This document shows positions 25,401 through 30,384 of a stretch of 40,869 nt of DNA, piece by piece; position 1 is the stretch's first letter; each line of letters opens with the position of its first letter. Under the pieces are notes generated by a model, which was given only the letters and a program-made list of their open reading frames with translations, ran no database searches and was not told the origin of the DNA. The position numbers were made by a program, and so were the translations under genes. The DNA lies in the IMG/VR virus record IMGVR_UViG_3300020129_000240, positions 1-40,869 of that record, one strand, 5' to 3'. Origin of the DNA: a virus.

Positions 25401-25943
25401 ATGACAATCGAGCGGCGTATCATCGCCGATCGCGAGCAGTGGCTCGCGTGGCGACGGGAAGACGTTACCGCCTCGGCGATCGGCGCGCTGTTCGGCGTGC
25501 ATCCGTACCTGACCAAGATGCGGCTCTACGCCGAGAAGCGCGGCGTCGAGTTCGGTGCCAACGAGGACAACAAGCTGCTGCGCCGCGGCCGCTGGCTCGA
25601 GCCCGCCGTCGGCGCAGCCGTCGCCGAGCTCCGTCCCGATTGGCGCATCGTTCCGGCCGGCGTCTATCTGCGCGATCCCGAGCTGCGCTTAGGAGCGACG
25701 CCGGATTTCTTCATCTATGACGACCCTCGTGGCCTCGGCGTCCTGCAAGCCAAGACTGCATCCCCGTCGGCATTCAAGCGGGACTGGGCCGACGGCGCCG
25801 AGGTCCCGATGTGGATCATGCTGCAGCTGAGCGTCGAGATGATGCTCGCCGATGCCGCCTTCGGCGCGGTCGCCGTCCTCCTTGTCGATGCGTACGGCAT
25901 GGACTGCAAAATCATCGAGTTTCCCCGTGATGACGCGAGTTGA
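25401..25943 (+). CDS. YqaJ/lambda-exonuclease-like nuclease, catalytic half
   Basis: The 180-aa protein matches the YqaJ viral recombinase family. It shows 'WLAWRREDVTASAIGALFG' (9-32), 'RRGRWLEPAVGAAVAE' (about 58-70), the catalytic 'LGATPDFFIYDD' and 'GVLQAKTA' with the lysine. Gln replaces the usual Glu of the E-x-K motif, a variant I associate with Rhizobiales relatives. It degrades one strand of dsDNA ends to feed the RecT protein two genes downstream. It ends at TGA 25943, and the remainder of a typical YqaJ protein continues in another frame from 25930. Confidence 0.82.
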   Translation: MTIERRIIADREQWLAWRREDVTASAIGALFGVHPYLTKMRLYAEKRGVEFGANEDNKLLRRGRWLEPAVGAAVAELRPDWRIVPAGVYLRDPELRLGATPDFFIYDDPRGLGVLQAKTASPSAFKRDWADGAEVPMWIMLQLSVEMMLADAAFGAVAVLLVDAYGMDCKIIEFPRDDAS

Positions 25944-26331
25944 GCAAAAGATCCTGCGCGCGGTCGCGCAATTCTGGGCCGACGTGCGCAACGGCCACGA
26001 GCCCGAGCTCGATCCGGAGCGCGATGCGCAGACTGTCGCCGCCATCTCGCCGGTCTCAAATGGCGCCAGCCTCGATCTCAGCGGCAATAACGAGCTCCCG
26101 GAGAAGCTGGCGCATCGCGCTGCGCTCAAGGACGTCATTGAGGACGCCGAGCGCGAGTGCAAGGCGATCGAGACCGAGCTCAAGCATCTCCTCGGCGACG
26201 CCGAGGCCGCGACCGGCATCAACGGCTGGTCGATTTCATACAAGTCGGGCATGCGGCAGGGCTACACGGTGCCCCCCACAACCGTTCGCCCGCTGCGCAT
26301 CACCGATCGTCGCGAAGTAACAAAGGACTGA
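25930..26331 (+). CDS. YqaJ C-terminal region in a separate frame
   Basis: The 133-aa product from ATG 25930 corresponds to the C-terminal part of YqaJ-type proteins: 'ILRAVAQFWADVRNGHEPELDPERDAQTV', then 'SLDLSGNNELPEKLAHRAALKDVIEDAERECKAIETELKHLLGDAEAATGINGWSISYK' and a YTVPPTTVRPLRITD end. The coiled-coil segment may mediate oligomerisation. It overlaps the first half by 14 nt in the +1 frame. It may be translated separately by coupling, or as a fused protein after a frameshift; a sequencing error is also possible. Confidence 0.72.
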   Translation: MTRVEQKILRAVAQFWADVRNGHEPELDPERDAQTVAAISPVSNGASLDLSGNNELPEKLAHRAALKDVIEDAERECKAIETELKHLLGDAEAATGINGWSISYKSGMRQGYTVPPTTVRPLRITDRREVTKD

Positions 26332-26334
26332 GGA

Positions 26335-27399
26335 ATGAACGAAGTAACGACGCTGAATAATCCTCCGCCGATCGTCTTCCTGCGCCAGAGGATCGATGCG
26401 CGCCGCCATGAGGTCGAGGCGGCGCTGCCTCCAGATATCAGCTATCCGCAGTTCATCCGCGCCCTGATGACGAGCGCGAGCCTCAATCCGGACATCCTCG
26501 CCTGCAGCTGGCAGTCGATCTGGCTGGCATGCCTGCAGGCTTGCCGCGACGGCCTCCTCCCGGACGGCGTCGAAGGCGCGATCGTTCCCTACAAATCGCG
26601 CGCCTCGTGGGTGGCGATGTATCAAGGACTGCTTCGCCGCTTCCGGCGCAGCGGCCAGTTCAAATGGATCACCGCCAACATCGTCCGCAAAGGCGACAAG
26701 TTCGAGCATTGGATCGACCAGCACGGCGAGCATTTCCATCACGAGCCCAAGTACGATCTCAACAAGGAGATCGAGTTCATCTATGCGCTCGCGACCACCA
26801 AGGACGAGGGTTTCTTCGTCGTGGTGATGTCGATCGCCGAAGCCGACAAGATCCGCAAGTTCTCGAAGAATACGCGCGAGGACAGCCCATGGGCGCAGTG
26901 GGCGACCGAGATGTACAAAAAGACCGCGCTGCGCCGGCTCAGCAAAATGCTGCCGTCCGCGCGCGATCTCATGCCACCGACCGAGGCCGATGCGCCCGAA
27001 CTCCCGGAGCTCGAGGAGGCGCCAGCGATCGCGGCGCCGGCGCCCGCGAAACGGACGCCCGCAGAGGAACTACAGCACTTCGCTGACGACGACGTTGATC
27101 GGCCGGCGGCGAACGCAGCGCCGGCCGATCGGCAGCCTCCCGCTGTCGATCCCGACAGGGTCCAGGGCGAGGAGGCTTCTGGCGGGGACACTGACCGCGA
27201 GGCACACAACGTCGGTGTCCCCGTTTCTTCCGCGGACGCGCTGCAGCTCGCCTACGAGCGCGGCAAAGACTGGAAGGCCAAGGGCAACGCCCGCAAGGCC
27301 ACGCCGCCCGAATATCGCACCGACGACCGGCGCGCCGAGGCCGCCGCCTGGCAGGCCGGCTACGACGGGCAGCCACTGCCCGAGAACGCCTTGGTGTGA
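26335..27399 (+). CDS. recT: RecT-family single-strand annealing protein with RMF-like C-terminus
   Basis: The first 225 residues of this 354-aa protein fit RecT. They include 'SYPQFIRALMTSASLNPDILACSWQSIWLACLQACRDGLLPDGVEGAIVPY', 'WVAMYQGLLRRFRRSGQFKWITANIV' and 'DSPWAQWATEMYKKTALRRLSKMLP'. It anneals complementary ssDNA, in partnership with the YqaJ nuclease upstream. A disordered Pro/Ala/Asp linker follows. The last 50 residues (LAYERGKDWKAKGNARKA ... AWQAGYDG) resemble ribosome modulation factor/CrpP-like domains. Start is supported by GGACTGAGGA before ATG 26335. Confidence 0.88.
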   Translation: MNEVTTLNNPPPIVFLRQRIDARRHEVEAALPPDISYPQFIRALMTSASLNPDILACSWQSIWLACLQACRDGLLPDGVEGAIVPYKSRASWVAMYQGLLRRFRRSGQFKWITANIVRKGDKFEHWIDQHGEHFHHEPKYDLNKEIEFIYALATTKDEGFFVVVMSIAEADKIRKFSKNTREDSPWAQWATEMYKKTALRRLSKMLPSARDLMPPTEADAPELPELEEAPAIAAPAPAKRTPAEELQHFADDDVDRPAANAAPADRQPPAVDPDRVQGEEASGGDTDREAHNVGVPVSSADALQLAYERGKDWKAKGNARKATPPEYRTDDRRAEAAAWQAGYDGQPLPENALV

Positions 27400-27401
27400 C
27401 A

Positions 27402-27848
27402 ATGAAGGCTCTCACGGTATGGCAGCCAATGGCGTCGCTGATCGTCATCGGCGCGCTGCGCGCCGAGGTCCGGCGGAGGCATTACAGCCGATTTGCCGGA
27501 GCGCCGCGGCCCGGTGAGAGGATTGTCATCCATTCCGCAACGAGGGCGGTGCGGCGCCACGAGGTCGAGCGCCTGCTCAATCGCCTTCGTGAAGACCCCC
27601 TGCTGATAGATCGCTTAGCGCGGCCGTTCTTGAACAAGCTCTGGCTCTCCGAGGGCTGCCAAGGGGCCGTCTTCGGCTGCGGCCTCGGGACCGCGATCAT
27701 CGACTATGCGCCAGAGATCGATAGAGGCGCGTGGGCGTGGATGATGCAGGAGGTCCGCCCTTGGAGCCGGCCAGTGCCGGCGGCCGGATCGCAAGGCTTC
27801 TGGAAATGGCCCTTCGAGGTCAAGGAGGAAAAACTGCGTTCTGCTTAA
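27402..27848 (+). CDS. ASCH-domain protein
   Basis: The 148-aa protein starts 'MKALTVWQPMASLIVIGALRAEVRRR', the typical ASCH opening (strand, WQP, small loop, E-x-R-type residues). It continues with GERIVIHSATRAV and GAVFGCGLGTAII. ASCH proteins have a PUA-like fold and bind RNA or modified nucleosides; some are amidohydrolases of N4-acetylcytidine. Stop TAA 27846-27848 abuts the first GGCNN tract without a single base between. Last gene of the coupled plus-strand set (YqaJ, RecT, ASCH). Confidence 0.8.
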   Translation: MKALTVWQPMASLIVIGALRAEVRRRHYSRFAGAPRPGERIVIHSATRAVRRHEVERLLNRLREDPLLIDRLARPFLNKLWLSEGCQGAVFGCGLGTAIIDYAPEIDRGAWAWMMQEVRPWSRPVPAAGSQGFWKWPFEVKEEKLRSA

Positions 27849-28023
27849 GGCGCGGCGCGGCTTGGCACGGCCAGGCTGGGCAAGGCTTGGCGGGGCACGG
27901 CGGGGCACGGCTGGGCATGGCTGGGCAGGGCAAGGCCCGGCTGGGCGCGGCGGGGCAGGGCCCGGCGTGGCGGGGCCAGGCTGGGTAAGGCAAGGCCAGG
28001 CAAGGCGAGGCAAGGCGAGGCGA
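27849..28023 (+). repeat. GGCNN pentamer array, tract 1 (35 units)
   Basis: 35 consecutive GGCNN units with no indel. Only one unit departs from GGC (a GGT). It begins at the base after the ASCH stop codon, with GGCGC GGCGC, and finishes with GGCGA-type units followed by GCATTTGTTAGTT. The two N positions vary freely. Confidence 0.93.
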
Positions 28024-28051
28024 GCATTTGTTAGTTACGTTTAGTTCACGC
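28024..28051 (+). repeat. Array spacer 1 with ATTTGTTAGTT boundary
   Basis: The 28-nt gap between tracts 1 and 2 carries ATTTGTTAGTT at 28026-28036, then a short AT-rich stretch ending CACGC. The same boundary sequence recurs after tracts 2 and 4, and with one change after tract 5. Confidence 0.85.
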
Positions 28052-28216
28052 GGCGCGGCGCGGCTCGGCGTGGCAAGGCGTGGCGAGGCTGGGCCGGGAG
28101 CGGCGTGGCGAGGCGGGGCATGGCCCGGCAAGGCGGGGCGGGGCGAGGCTTGGCGCGGCGGGGCAAGGCATGGCTTGGCACGGCGGGGCAAGGCTTGGCA
28201 AGGCAAGGCGAGGCTA
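28052..28216 (+). repeat. GGCNN pentamer array, tract 2 (33 units)
   Basis: 33 units without indel; one GGA variant (GGAGC). It starts GGCGC GGCGC, as tract 1 does, and ends GGCGA GGCTA, then ATTTGTTAGTT at 28219-28229. Confidence 0.93.
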
Positions 28217-28249
28217 GCATTTGTTAGTTCAACTTAAATATCAACTTCA
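28217..28249 (+). repeat. Array spacer 2 with ATTTGTTAGTT boundary
   Basis: The 33-nt AT-rich spacer has the boundary at 28219-28229, followed by AACTTAAATATCAACTT. The lower GC is a strong contrast to the flanking tracts. Confidence 0.85.
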
Positions 28250-28354
28250 GGCGCGGCTCGGTGAGGCCGGGCGTGGCTGGGCCAGGCTTGGCAAGGCAAG
28301 GCATGGCACGGCGGGGCCGGGCGTGGCTAGGCAAGGCAAGGCAAGGCAAGGCAA
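28250..28354 (+). repeat. GGCNN pentamer array, tract 3 (21 units)
   Basis: 21 units without indel, one GGT variant. The last five units are all GGCAA, then the tract passes into the leader and ribosome site of the gene at 28382. Confidence 0.92.
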
Positions 28355-28381
28355 GGTCATTCATCATGGGAGGAAAGCGAA

Positions 28382-28987
28382 ATGCACGACGTAGTAGTAA
28401 GCACGAACAAACCAACCGACATAGTAACAAGGAAGGTAAGTCTGATCGGACTGACGGACATCATGTTCGACAGGTATCCGGGCGACAACAATACAAAGCT
28501 GGAGCCCCACCAAAAACTCTATTTCGAGCCGGGCAGTACCAAAGCTATTGGAGTTCCGGCGCTCAACATTATCTCGTTCTTGTCGGCCCACAATACAAAT
28601 TCTGCGCCGAAACGTTTGCGCGATAAGCGCAAATACAAAGACATCGCCAACGCGATGCTTTCCTTCGTCAACATCCGGGAACAGTTTATTCCGCTTCTTC
28701 GCGCGGGAAAGGCGATCACAGTGGGGAAATTCGAAAACGACAAGGATCCCAAAAGCGGCGTCTATATTCATCACTCCGTCGCGCGGCTCGATAAAGGGAT
28801 CCCGAACCCGAAGGCGCGGCCGGTCCTGCCCCTTGAGTGGCACCTCGACTTCACACTCGACATCTTTCCTAATCGTGAAATCAAGGAGCAGGATATCCTC
28901 AATCTTTTTGAGGAAGGCGGCCGCGCGCTCGGGCTCGGCACGTTTAGGGGCGTCTACGGCAAGTTTCGGATCGGGCACTGGAATTAA
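28382..28987 (+). CDS. Array-embedded 201-aa protein (unknown; possible RAMP/RRM-like fold)
   Basis: This gene sits alone between GGCNN tracts 3 and 4 with a good site (GGGAGG, 8 bases before ATG). It is AT-richer than its surroundings, so it was not built from repeats. I do not recognise a named family. Visible are an N-terminal strand (VSLIGLTDIMFDRY), helix PALNIISFL, a basic stretch (APKRLRDKRKYK), 'ARLDKGIPNPKARPVLPL', a strand pair (WHLDFTLDIFP), helix ILNLFEEGGRALG and a C-terminal glycine loop plus strand (GLGTFRGVYGKFRI). A helix followed by a G-x-G-x-x-R-G-x-x-G-x-F loop recalls the glycine-rich loop of Cas5/6/7 RAMP proteins, but it may be chance. TAA 28985-28987 lies 4 bases before tract 4. 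Confidence 0.72.
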   Translation: MHDVVVSTNKPTDIVTRKVSLIGLTDIMFDRYPGDNNTKLEPHQKLYFEPGSTKAIGVPALNIISFLSAHNTNSAPKRLRDKRKYKDIANAMLSFVNIREQFIPLLRAGKAITVGKFENDKDPKSGVYIHHSVARLDKGIPNPKARPVLPLEWHLDFTLDIFPNREIKEQDILNLFEEGGRALGLGTFRGVYGKFRIGHWN

Positions 28988-28991
28988 CCGT

Positions 28992-29091
28992 GGCAAGGCG
29001 GGGCAGGGCCAGGCAGGGCACGGCATGGCTTGGCTGGGCAAGGCTTGGCTGGGCTTGGCCCGGCAAGGCAAGGCGGGGCGAGGCAAGGCGA
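28992..29091 (+). repeat. GGCNN pentamer array, tract 4 (20 units)
   Basis: 20 units, all keeping GGC, no indel. It begins 4 bases after the stop of the 201-aa gene. It ends GGCAA GGCGA, then GGATTTGTTAGTT (29092-29104). Confidence 0.93.
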
Positions 29092-29114
29092 GGATTTGTT
29101 AGTTCGTTTCGCGA
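29092..29114 (+). repeat. Array spacer 4 with ATTTGTTAGTTCG boundary
   Basis: The 23-nt spacer carries ATTTGTTAGTT at 29094-29104, then CGTTTCGCGA. It is almost identical to the spacer at 29215-29237. Confidence 0.85.
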
Positions 29115-29214
29115 GGCGGGGCTCGGCGAGGCGTGGCAAGGCGAGACGGGGCGTGGCGTGGCACGGCCTGGCGAGGCTTGGCAGGGCCAGGCACGGCGCG
29201 GCAAGGCGAGGCTA
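29115..29214 (+). repeat. GGCNN pentamer array, tract 5 (20 units)
   Basis: 20 units, no indel, one GAC variant. It ends GGCGA GGCTA. The last bases overlap the 3' end of the minus-strand zinc-ribbon frame. Confidence 0.92.
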
Positions 29215-29409
29215 GGATTTATTAGTTCGTTTCCCGCGGCGCGCATGGCAGGGCCCGGCTGGGCGGGGCGGGGCGAGGCCGGGCTGGGCGCGGCGAGGCA
29301 AGGCAGGGCGGGGAGCGGCTTGGCGCGCAACTGAATTGTAGTCGCAAAAGTGACTGTTTTGGCAGCGGCCGTCGAGCAGACTATCACCGCAATGCGGGCA
29401 GGCTCTCAT
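29212..29409 (-). CDS. Small zinc-ribbon protein whose 3' half is array sequence
   Basis: From ATG 29409 the 65-aa frame begins with a metal site: MRACPHCGDSLLDGRC, then HFCDYNS. An AGGAG site lies 8 bases upstream. After about residue 29 the frame enters GGCNN tract 6 read on the minus strand, giving a Pro/Ala/Arg-rich tail, and it stops inside spacer 5. The ribbon looks real; the tail looks acquired. Alternatively it is a gene remnant truncated by the array. Confidence 0.55.
   Translation of the reverse strand: MRACPHCGDSLLDGRCQNSHFCDYNSVARQAAPRPALPRRAQPGLAPPRPAGPCHARRGKRTNKS
29215..29237 (+). repeat. Array spacer 5 with ATTTATTAGTTCG boundary
   Basis: The 23-nt spacer has ATTTATTAGTT at 29217-29227 (one change from the other three), then CGTTTCCCGC. 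Confidence 0.83.
29238..29326 (+). repeat. GGCNN pentamer array, tract 6 (18 units)
   Basis: 18 units. It contains the only indel of all tracts, a four-base GCAT unit at 29243-29246, and one GGA variant. It lies antisense to the zinc-ribbon frame and lacks the ATTTGTTAGTT end. Confidence 0.88.
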
Positions 29410-29472
29410 CGGGTGTTCTCCTAGCGAAGCAGCGCGGCGACTATAAGCCGAGGCCGCATCGTCGGACAACGC
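29410..29472. other. Non-repeat leader between tracts 6 and 7
   Basis: This segment carries the ribosome site (AGGAG on the minus strand) and 5' leader of the zinc-ribbon gene. No promoter could be assigned. The whole stretch 29410-29871 has no other gene; it contains tracts 7 and 8, a dyad spacer and a possible terminator, listed separately. Confidence 0.5.
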
Positions 29473-29552
29473 GGCGGGGCCGGGCAGGGCGTGGCAGGGC
29501 GCGGCGGGGCTCGGCGAGGCGTGGCAAGGCCAGGCTGGGCAAGGCTAGGCGA
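29473..29552 (+). repeat. GGCNN pentamer array, tract 7 (16 units)
   Basis: 16 perfect GGCNN units, no indel. It starts GGCGG after AACGC and ends GGCTA GGCGA, then GGGCACGTTG. Confidence 0.92.
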
Positions 29553-29600
29553 GGGCACGTTGTCGCGTTACGACGTTGCGACGTTGCGACGTGACAACGC
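29553..29600. repeat. Spacer 7 with GCGACGTT direct repeats inside a GTTGTC/GACAAC dyad
   Basis: This 48-nt spacer has GTTGTC near its left end and GACAAC near its right end, enclosing three overlapping copies of an 8-base ACGTTGCG-like unit. It could form a cruciform or bind a protein dimer. Confidence 0.6.
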
Positions 29601-29790
29601 GGCGCGGCTGGGTAAGGCAGGGCACGGCGGGGCTGGGCCAGGCGGGGCGAGGTTGGGCGAGGCACGGCAGGGCAGGGCGCTGCGTGGCAGGGCCAGGCGG
29701 GGCGAGGTTGGGCGGGGCGAGGCAGGGCAAGGCTAGGCGGGGCGGGGCTCGGCAGGGCAAGGCAAGGCTTGGCAAGGCGAGGCAAGGCTA
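29601..29790 (+). repeat. GGCNN pentamer array, tract 8 (38 units)
   Basis: The longest tract: 38 units in constant phase with no indel. Four variants are seen (one GGTAA, two GGTTG, one TGCGT). It starts GGCGC after AACGC and ends GGCGA GGCAA GGCTA. Confidence 0.92.
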
Positions 29791-29871: not shown

Positions 29872-30384
29872 CTACCTGAATACAGCTCCCAAACGGTCGA
29901 CGGCTGCTTGTAGCCTCGGATCGAGCCGTTTTGGCACGGGCAGTGCACAAGTAAGGAAGGTTCTAGTTCCTTGATTAGCGGTTCCAGGCTGAAACTTGGT
30001 GTTAGAACCCGGAACGTTGAATATATAAGCATTGGACGTCCGCCAGACCCGCACCCGGCCGTCCTTTCGGACCCGGATCAGCCGGTTAACCCAGGTCAGC
30101 AGCCCTGCTCCCTCGAGCGCCTTGATCGCCGAGCCGACAGTCGACGGCGAGCAGCCTGCCTTCTCGGCGATACGCTCGTAGCTCGGGAAGCACCGGCCCG
30201 TCGTCGCATTGTGAAACCCCCATAATAGGGCTTTCAGCACCTCGACGAACTTGAGGGTCAGGATCCCGAAGTGCTTCCCCTCCTCGGTCGGTTTCGAGAG
30301 CGCATAGGCCAGCGTCTGGACGCGGACTTTCTCGTTGCGATCGAGCGGCCGCAGGCGGCCCTCTCCGAATAGCTTTGCTCTCAT
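29872..30384 (-). CDS. Winged-helix (HTH_36-type) Rep-like protein
   Basis: The 170-aa protein has its core 'VLKALLWGFHNATTGRCFPSYERIAEKAGCSPSTVGSAIKALEGAGLLTWVNRLIRVRK' (about 50-108). This is the winged-helix found in replication initiators and regulators of alphaproteobacterial plasmids and islands. The text before it (KVRVQTLAYALSKPTEEGKHFGILTLKF) fits the same group. It likely binds origin or operator DNA. GGAGG lies 6 bases before ATG 30384. The gene is convergent with the arrays. Confidence 0.78.
   Translation of the reverse strand: MRAKLFGEGRLRPLDRNEKVRVQTLAYALSKPTEEGKHFGILTLKFVEVLKALLWGFHNATTGRCFPSYERIAEKAGCSPSTVGSAIKALEGAGLLTWVNRLIRVRKDGRVRVWRTSNAYIFNVPGSNTKFQPGTANQGTRTFLTCALPVPKRLDPRLQAAVDRLGAVFR

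Follow-up and report, generated by a model that had tools for sequence, protein, structure and literature searches.

We are highly confident that the phage contig analyzed here in full (40,869 nucleotides; hereafter, the window) carries a VIPR locus, with tracts of GGCNN pentamers serving as vrRNA guide genes for the protein Vipr. That these tracts are VIPR guide-RNA genes is almost certain. VIPR is a phage-versus-phage targeting system described in a bioRxiv preprint of April 2026 (version 2, June 2026; PMC13142463). According to the preprint, Vipr is a RAMP homologue that binds an RNA of GGY/NN repeats, and each vrRNA has 9-16 YNNGG repeats and then a tail that does not vary. The NN pairs are described as reading double-stranded DNA with one skipped base, changes in NN are shown to retarget the complex, and competing phages, satellites and prophages make up most of the targets (PMC13142463). 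The same source distinguishes seven types with varied array layouts; an accessory gene, vap, is typical of VIPR without being universal. The preprint presents VIPR as the first RNA-guided system that reads DNA via a gapped code and as a proposed forerunner of CRISPR. The initial annotation of this DNA was not aware of any such element having been described in phages, a statement overtaken by that publication. The window locus is thus of a kind known since April 2026, and it is a functional-looking, divergent, long-guide example.

Eight GGCNN tracts, amounting to about 200 phased units, lie at 27849-29790, all on the + strand. The vipr ORF sits between the third and the fourth, with three tracts upstream and five downstream, all in its own orientation. 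The elements of the locus are the following.

27849..28023, + strand: vrRNA tract 1, 35 GGCNN units
28024..28036, + strand: 13-mer tail GCATTTGTTAGTT, after tract 1
28052..28216, + strand: vrRNA tract 2, 33 units
28217..28229, + strand: 13-mer tail, after tract 2
28250..28354, + strand: vrRNA tract 3, 21 units, directly 5' of vipr, the last five units being GGCAA
28382..28987, + strand: vipr gene, 201 aa, PHROG 4652 family, predicted RAMP fold, C-terminal glycine-rich loop GGRALGLGTFRGVYGKF
28992..29091, + strand: vrRNA tract 4, 20 units, beginning 4 nt past the vipr stop codon
29092..29104, + strand: 13-mer tail GGATTTGTTAGTT, after tract 4
29115..29214, + strand: vrRNA tract 5, 20 units
29215..29227, + strand: 13-mer tail GGATTTATTAGTT, after tract 5
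29238..29326, + strand: vrRNA tract 6, counted as 18 units with the single 4-nt unit and as 16 when taken strictly in phase from 29247
29473..29552, + strand: vrRNA tract 7, 16 units, with a GACAACG / CGTTGTC inverted repeat on both sides
29601..29790, + strand: vrRNA tract 8, 38 units, within which a block of 11 units (55 nt) is imperfectly duplicated

Our recount agrees with the eight tracts of 35, 33, 21, 20, 20, 18, 16 and 38 units reported in the initial annotation, and with its estimate that about 190 of 201 units keep GGC: exact GGC stands in 190 of 199 in-phase units. Over 200 units anchored on GGC or GGT, the per-position counts are 199 G, 199 G and 192 C (with 6 T and 2 A at the third position). 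As had also been noted, all sixteen NN dinucleotides are present (CT once) and the tracts contain a single indel, the 4-nt unit of tract 6 at 29243-29246. Entropy by unit position is 0.05, 0.05, 0.27, 1.86 and 1.90 bits. Six consecutive GGCNN units are found at 115 window positions, and at none in 100 dinucleotide-preserving shuffles. Tandem Repeats Finder returned only weak arrays of mixed periods for the window, which is unsurprising given that two of the five bases are free.

Several tracts show individual features. The imperfect tandem duplication of tract 8 occupies 29616-29762, a hint that guides may grow via copied blocks of whole units. Tracts 5 and 7 have in common the five-unit run GG TC GA GT AA (29115-29142 and 29503-29530), so the two guides may share a target or a piece may have been copied. 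The region 29463-29606, in which tract 7 lies within its inverted repeats, with ACGTTGCG repeated in tandem after it, differs from the surroundings of the other tracts.

The 201-aa ORF between tracts 3 and 4 had been missed by the initial annotation, as had the 13-mer tail. Taken alone, this ORF matches PHROG 4652 (unknown function) weakly and no Pfam family, while all 77 members of its alignment match PHROG 4652. Searched against PDB sequences, the profile of these 77 homologues retrieved 36pp, 'SUSP1 Vipr protein', with E = 5.5e-42 over positions 2-185 of 188; single-sequence BLASTP against Vipr gave 29% identity over 52 aa (E = 3e-07). The AlphaFold model of the vipr product (pLDDT 95.5, pTM 0.88) has as its best Foldseek matches chains of CRISPR Csm/Cmr complexes (E about 1e-5, probability 1.00, TM 0.4-0.6). 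Near the C-terminus the protein carries a RAMP glycine-rich loop, GLGTFRGVYGKF, in which, across the 77 sequences, G184 and G193 are invariant and G180, G186 and R189 are at least 90% conserved. By sequence comparison and predicted structure, the ORF at 28382-28987 is a gene for Vipr, a small RAMP-fold protein, and PHROG 4652 thereby gains a likely function.

IMG/VR was scanned for ten exact GGCNN units, which yielded at least 120 stretches; NN diversity is high in nearly all of them, and most hold several tracts. Matches in bacterial genomes are mostly low-diversity satellites. An iterated profile seeded with the window ORF identified 94 homologous ORFs in the loci collected. Among the matches listed, the vipr gene accompanies 89 of 117 high-diversity viral tract loci (window included), a lower bound since many loci are cut at contig ends, and it was not found in the stretch examined of 28. 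In 87 of these 89 gene-bearing viral loci, again among the matches listed, all tracts lie on the strand of the gene. The same co-orientation holds for the genome loci with a vipr gene (5/5), and none of 101 low-diversity, satellite-like loci has one. Starting instead from the protein, a search confined to close relatives of the window gene gave 17 relatives at 49-78% identity, 16 of which carry tracts; four of the 17 (L307, L308, L309 and L323) are near-duplicates with an identical array layout, and in L319 the vipr gene is present and no tract was found. At L072 (468-957), six tracts are joined by CCTCAR, and the sole vipr-like ORF is weak, partial, on the opposite strand and at the end of the locus, so we regard it as an unusual or truncated case. 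Three contigs of bacterial MAGs (L165, L208 and L149) hold high-diversity GGCNN tracts and no vipr homologue in the stretch examined.

The genes surrounding the arrays in the window are these.

25401..26331, + strand: RecE/YqaJ-like exonuclease, divided between two overlapping ORFs that differ in frame
26335..27399, + strand: RecT single-strand annealing protein
27396..27848, + strand: PHROG 3193 protein of unknown function, adjoining the arrays
29872..30384, - strand: winged-helix replication-initiation-like protein

Of those neighbors that were sought near vipr in relatives, only RecE and RecT were found, and in L311 only; the PHROG 3193 gene was not found beside vipr in any relative tested. 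Since the neighbors of vipr in relatives differ from those in the window, vipr and its arrays seem to travel as a cassette. No conserved vap partner was seen among the vipr neighbors of close relatives, which vary. In L311 the two segments that match the split exonuclease share one frame, and the split in the window represents a frameshift, a sequencing error or a programmed shift. For the large terminase and portal, the nearest named relatives are Rhizobium phage RHph_I3_18 (61% and 52%, respectively) and Bradyrhizobium phage ppBjS10J-1 (57% and 34%). This similarity makes a host within the Rhizobiales likely. Neither of the two phages contains GGCNN tracts.

The initial annotation had proposed selection, or a generating mechanism, acting on spacing, with GG on the same strand every half helical turn. 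Selection is borne out, with GGC and the 5-nt step kept and NN free. The half-turn interpretation is not, since the tracts keep strictly to the strand of a RAMP-family gene and the locus matches VIPR, which points to RNA rather than a face of the DNA as the selected entity. A double-stranded DNA element, in which GG at each half turn forms a binding array, a nucleoid or packaging signal, or a recombination hot spot next to RecE/RecT, would fit the held spacing and the recombination genes that the window tracts adjoin. However, the tracts track the vipr gene and its strand, RecE and RecT lie near vipr in just one relative, and a DNA-face model predicts neither the same-strand linkage nor the conserved 3' tail described below. 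We therefore consider a DNA element extremely improbable.

Equally improbable, in our view, is that the tracts are a drifting pentanucleotide satellite or an assembly artefact. In favor of a satellite, bacterial genomes do contain GGCNN satellites of low entropy, and tract 8 has its 11-unit imperfect duplication. Against this stand the linkage to a gene and the near-maximal entropy of NN beside a held GGC. Across 419 unique tracts, entropy is 0.22 (G), 0.25 (G), 0.50 (C), 1.89 (N) and 1.99 (N) bits, the low values at G, G and C being partly built in by a tract finder anchored on GGC or GGT; the commonest change at the third position is C to T, that is, GGY. Moreover, the six substitutions that separate loci L316 and L317 fall without exception in NN and never in GGC, and the sole gap between the two is exactly 25 nt, or five units. 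The initial annotation had already argued against drifting satellites, naming random indels and equal mutation at G, C and N in relatives as the pattern that would overturn its view; what relatives show is the opposite, and with unit diversity high and drift unequal across positions we rejected the satellite explanation. An artefact of assembly, its other concern, is excluded by the recurrence of homologous loci in more than 100 independent viral contigs.

A 3' tail behind GGY/NN pentamers is how vrRNAs are built according to the preprint (PMC13142463). The 13-mer GSATTTRTTAGTT follows tracts 1, 2, 4 and 5 directly (four copies in the window, with none expected), so that the conserved 3' tail characteristic of VIPR is present after four of the eight window tracts; tract 6 is among those without it. 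In the long tracts of the window clade, A occupies the second N of the last three units in 77-87% of cases, an excess that falls to background by about the seventh unit from the end. No inner recurrence of A-rich units was seen in these tracts, and a single A-rich end of this kind favors one RNA with a single 3' end per long tract over several fused guides. Rfam returned no match, and a scan for promoters and terminators gave results at chance level.

Our model follows by analogy from the published system. Each tract would yield a vrRNA by transcription in the direction of vipr, and Vipr subunits would polymerize along this RNA, one GGC (GGY) triplet per subunit (PMC13142463). The thumb and the glycine-rich loop of Vipr would, by the same analogy, grip the GGC and present the next two bases, the 5-nt step corresponding to the subunit repeat. 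Under the 1-nt skip rule, the presented NN pairs would jointly read double-stranded DNA, leaving a single base unread from one pair to the next; once bound, the complex would silence its target, in most cases a gene carried by a competing phage or prophage (PMC13142463). For this clade, we infer that the GSATTTRTTAGTT tail and the closing 3-4 units, rich in A, may form a protein-bound 3' end. In this model, GGC is conserved and NN saturated because GGC would be held by Vipr and NN would be the guide code.

Searches for targets gave results at chance level. Under the 1-nt skip rule, five 8-unit seeds (from tracts 1, 2, 5 twice, and 7) each produced 3-24 matches in IMG/VR, as expected by chance, in a search that covered few seeds; the best skip-rule match, of tract 2 to L269 with 10 units in a row, is not beyond chance. 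A 14-unit pattern of tract 2 allowing 3 mismatches had no match in 385 alphaproteobacterial genomes, and a peptide guess decoded from tract 2 had none among phages. All guides against 1.95 Mb of collected-locus DNA gave 6, 5, 2, 1 and 4 matches for skips of 0-4, compared with 2-6 for shuffled guides; the 1-nt skip shows no excess in this comparison, which lacks power. As for a codon register, codon positions 1-2 are the best fit for NN in 67% of 368 guides, and a null keeping only the N1 and N2 frequencies gives 66%, so that this result reflects a purine-rich N1 only. A variance test for codon register was positive also for register 2-3 and was set aside as not specific.

In the sites of TRAP (trp RNA-binding attenuation protein), NAGNN repeats place a fixed triplet every 5 nt with a free spacer. 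The window tracts might likewise be an RNA sponge, with a ring or filament binding GGC each 5 nt, NN as mere spacer, and the RNA regulating the protein or acting as a decoy. The fixed triplet, the 5-nt step and the free NN are shared with TRAP sites, the tracts are co-oriented with the gene, and the searches run found no targets. However, TRAP has an unrelated fold, its spacer carries no code, and its sites have 11 units, whereas the fold of the window protein is predicted to be RAMP and its sequence matches Vipr. In addition, many distinct tracts per locus better fit a guide library, and NN changes retarget the VIPR complex according to the preprint (PMC13142463). We consider a sponge very unlikely, and retain the assignment of the tracts as guide genes.

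A maximum-likelihood tree assigns the window to a clade of 27 rows (support of 100/100 and a stem of 1.88 changes per column), and SUSP1 Vipr to a different one. Guide length also varies among clades, with the reservation that sequences within a clade are related and tests on tract-length counts are indicative only: the median is 18 units in the window clade, where 58% of tracts exceed 16 units and the longest has 47; it is 12.5 for loci of the clade that includes SUSP1 (21% above 16), 11 in a 30-row staggered-array clade (7% above 16), and 27 in a six-row clade (maximum 142). In the 30-row clade, 59 junctions between successive tracts are 1-nt phase slips. At L030 (5698-6002), L052, L057 and similar loci, successive tracts are joined by 4-nt units (e.g., CGCA), a 5n-1 step that fits the 'staggered arrays' described in the preprint (PMC13142463). 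L014 (6301-7010) holds one phased run of 142 GGCNN units, after a vipr gene and ahead of a gene whose start resembles RusA, and its clade mates L033, L059 and L098 have runs of 54-60 units.

We conclude that the window locus is a VIPR of a divergent branch with unusually long guides. More tentatively, and with our doubts slightly outweighing our confidence, we suggest that in the window clade and, separately, in the clade of L014, L033, L059 and L098, each long vrRNA constitutes one guide, 20-47 or more units in length and A-rich at its only 3' end, which would carry dozens of Vipr subunits, read 60-140 bp of target and work with no fixed vap partner. If true, this would be a long-guide architecture beyond the 9-16-unit guides given in the preprint (PMC13142463), and such forms would make it possible to study the influence of guide length on the affinity and specificity of targeting. 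More generally, VIPR arrays can be detected in raw phage DNA by the GGCNN rhythm alone, and the scan adds dozens of environmental loci from clades other than the laboratory-tested one.

Compared with known systems, the window protein shares its predicted fold and glycine-rich loop with class 1 CRISPR RAMP subunits (Csm3 / Cas7 type), and likely also the placement of one subunit per short RNA segment. In contrast to class 1 CRISPR, where the crRNA step is 6 nt, the window has a 5-nt step, three fixed bases and one small protein; direct repeats with unique spacers are absent from 27849-29790, which contains phased pentamers and short tails only. The closest counterparts are the VIPR of Escherichia phage SUSP1 (Vipr in PDB 36pp) and of a Pseudomonas fulva prophage (type II), whose Vipr is homologous to that of the window (PMC13142463). 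As in VIPR, tandem GGY/NN pentamers lie up- and downstream of vipr on the same strand, intergenic and phage-borne, with a 3' tail behind tracts; the window shows each VIPR anatomical feature that could be tested, save the tract length range and vap. It departs from the published systems in that its Vipr belongs to another well-supported clade, the last 3-4 units are A-rich, and the tracts are long: against the 9-16 units stated in the preprint (PMC13142463), two window tracts have 16-18 units and six have 20-38, with up to 47 in relatives.
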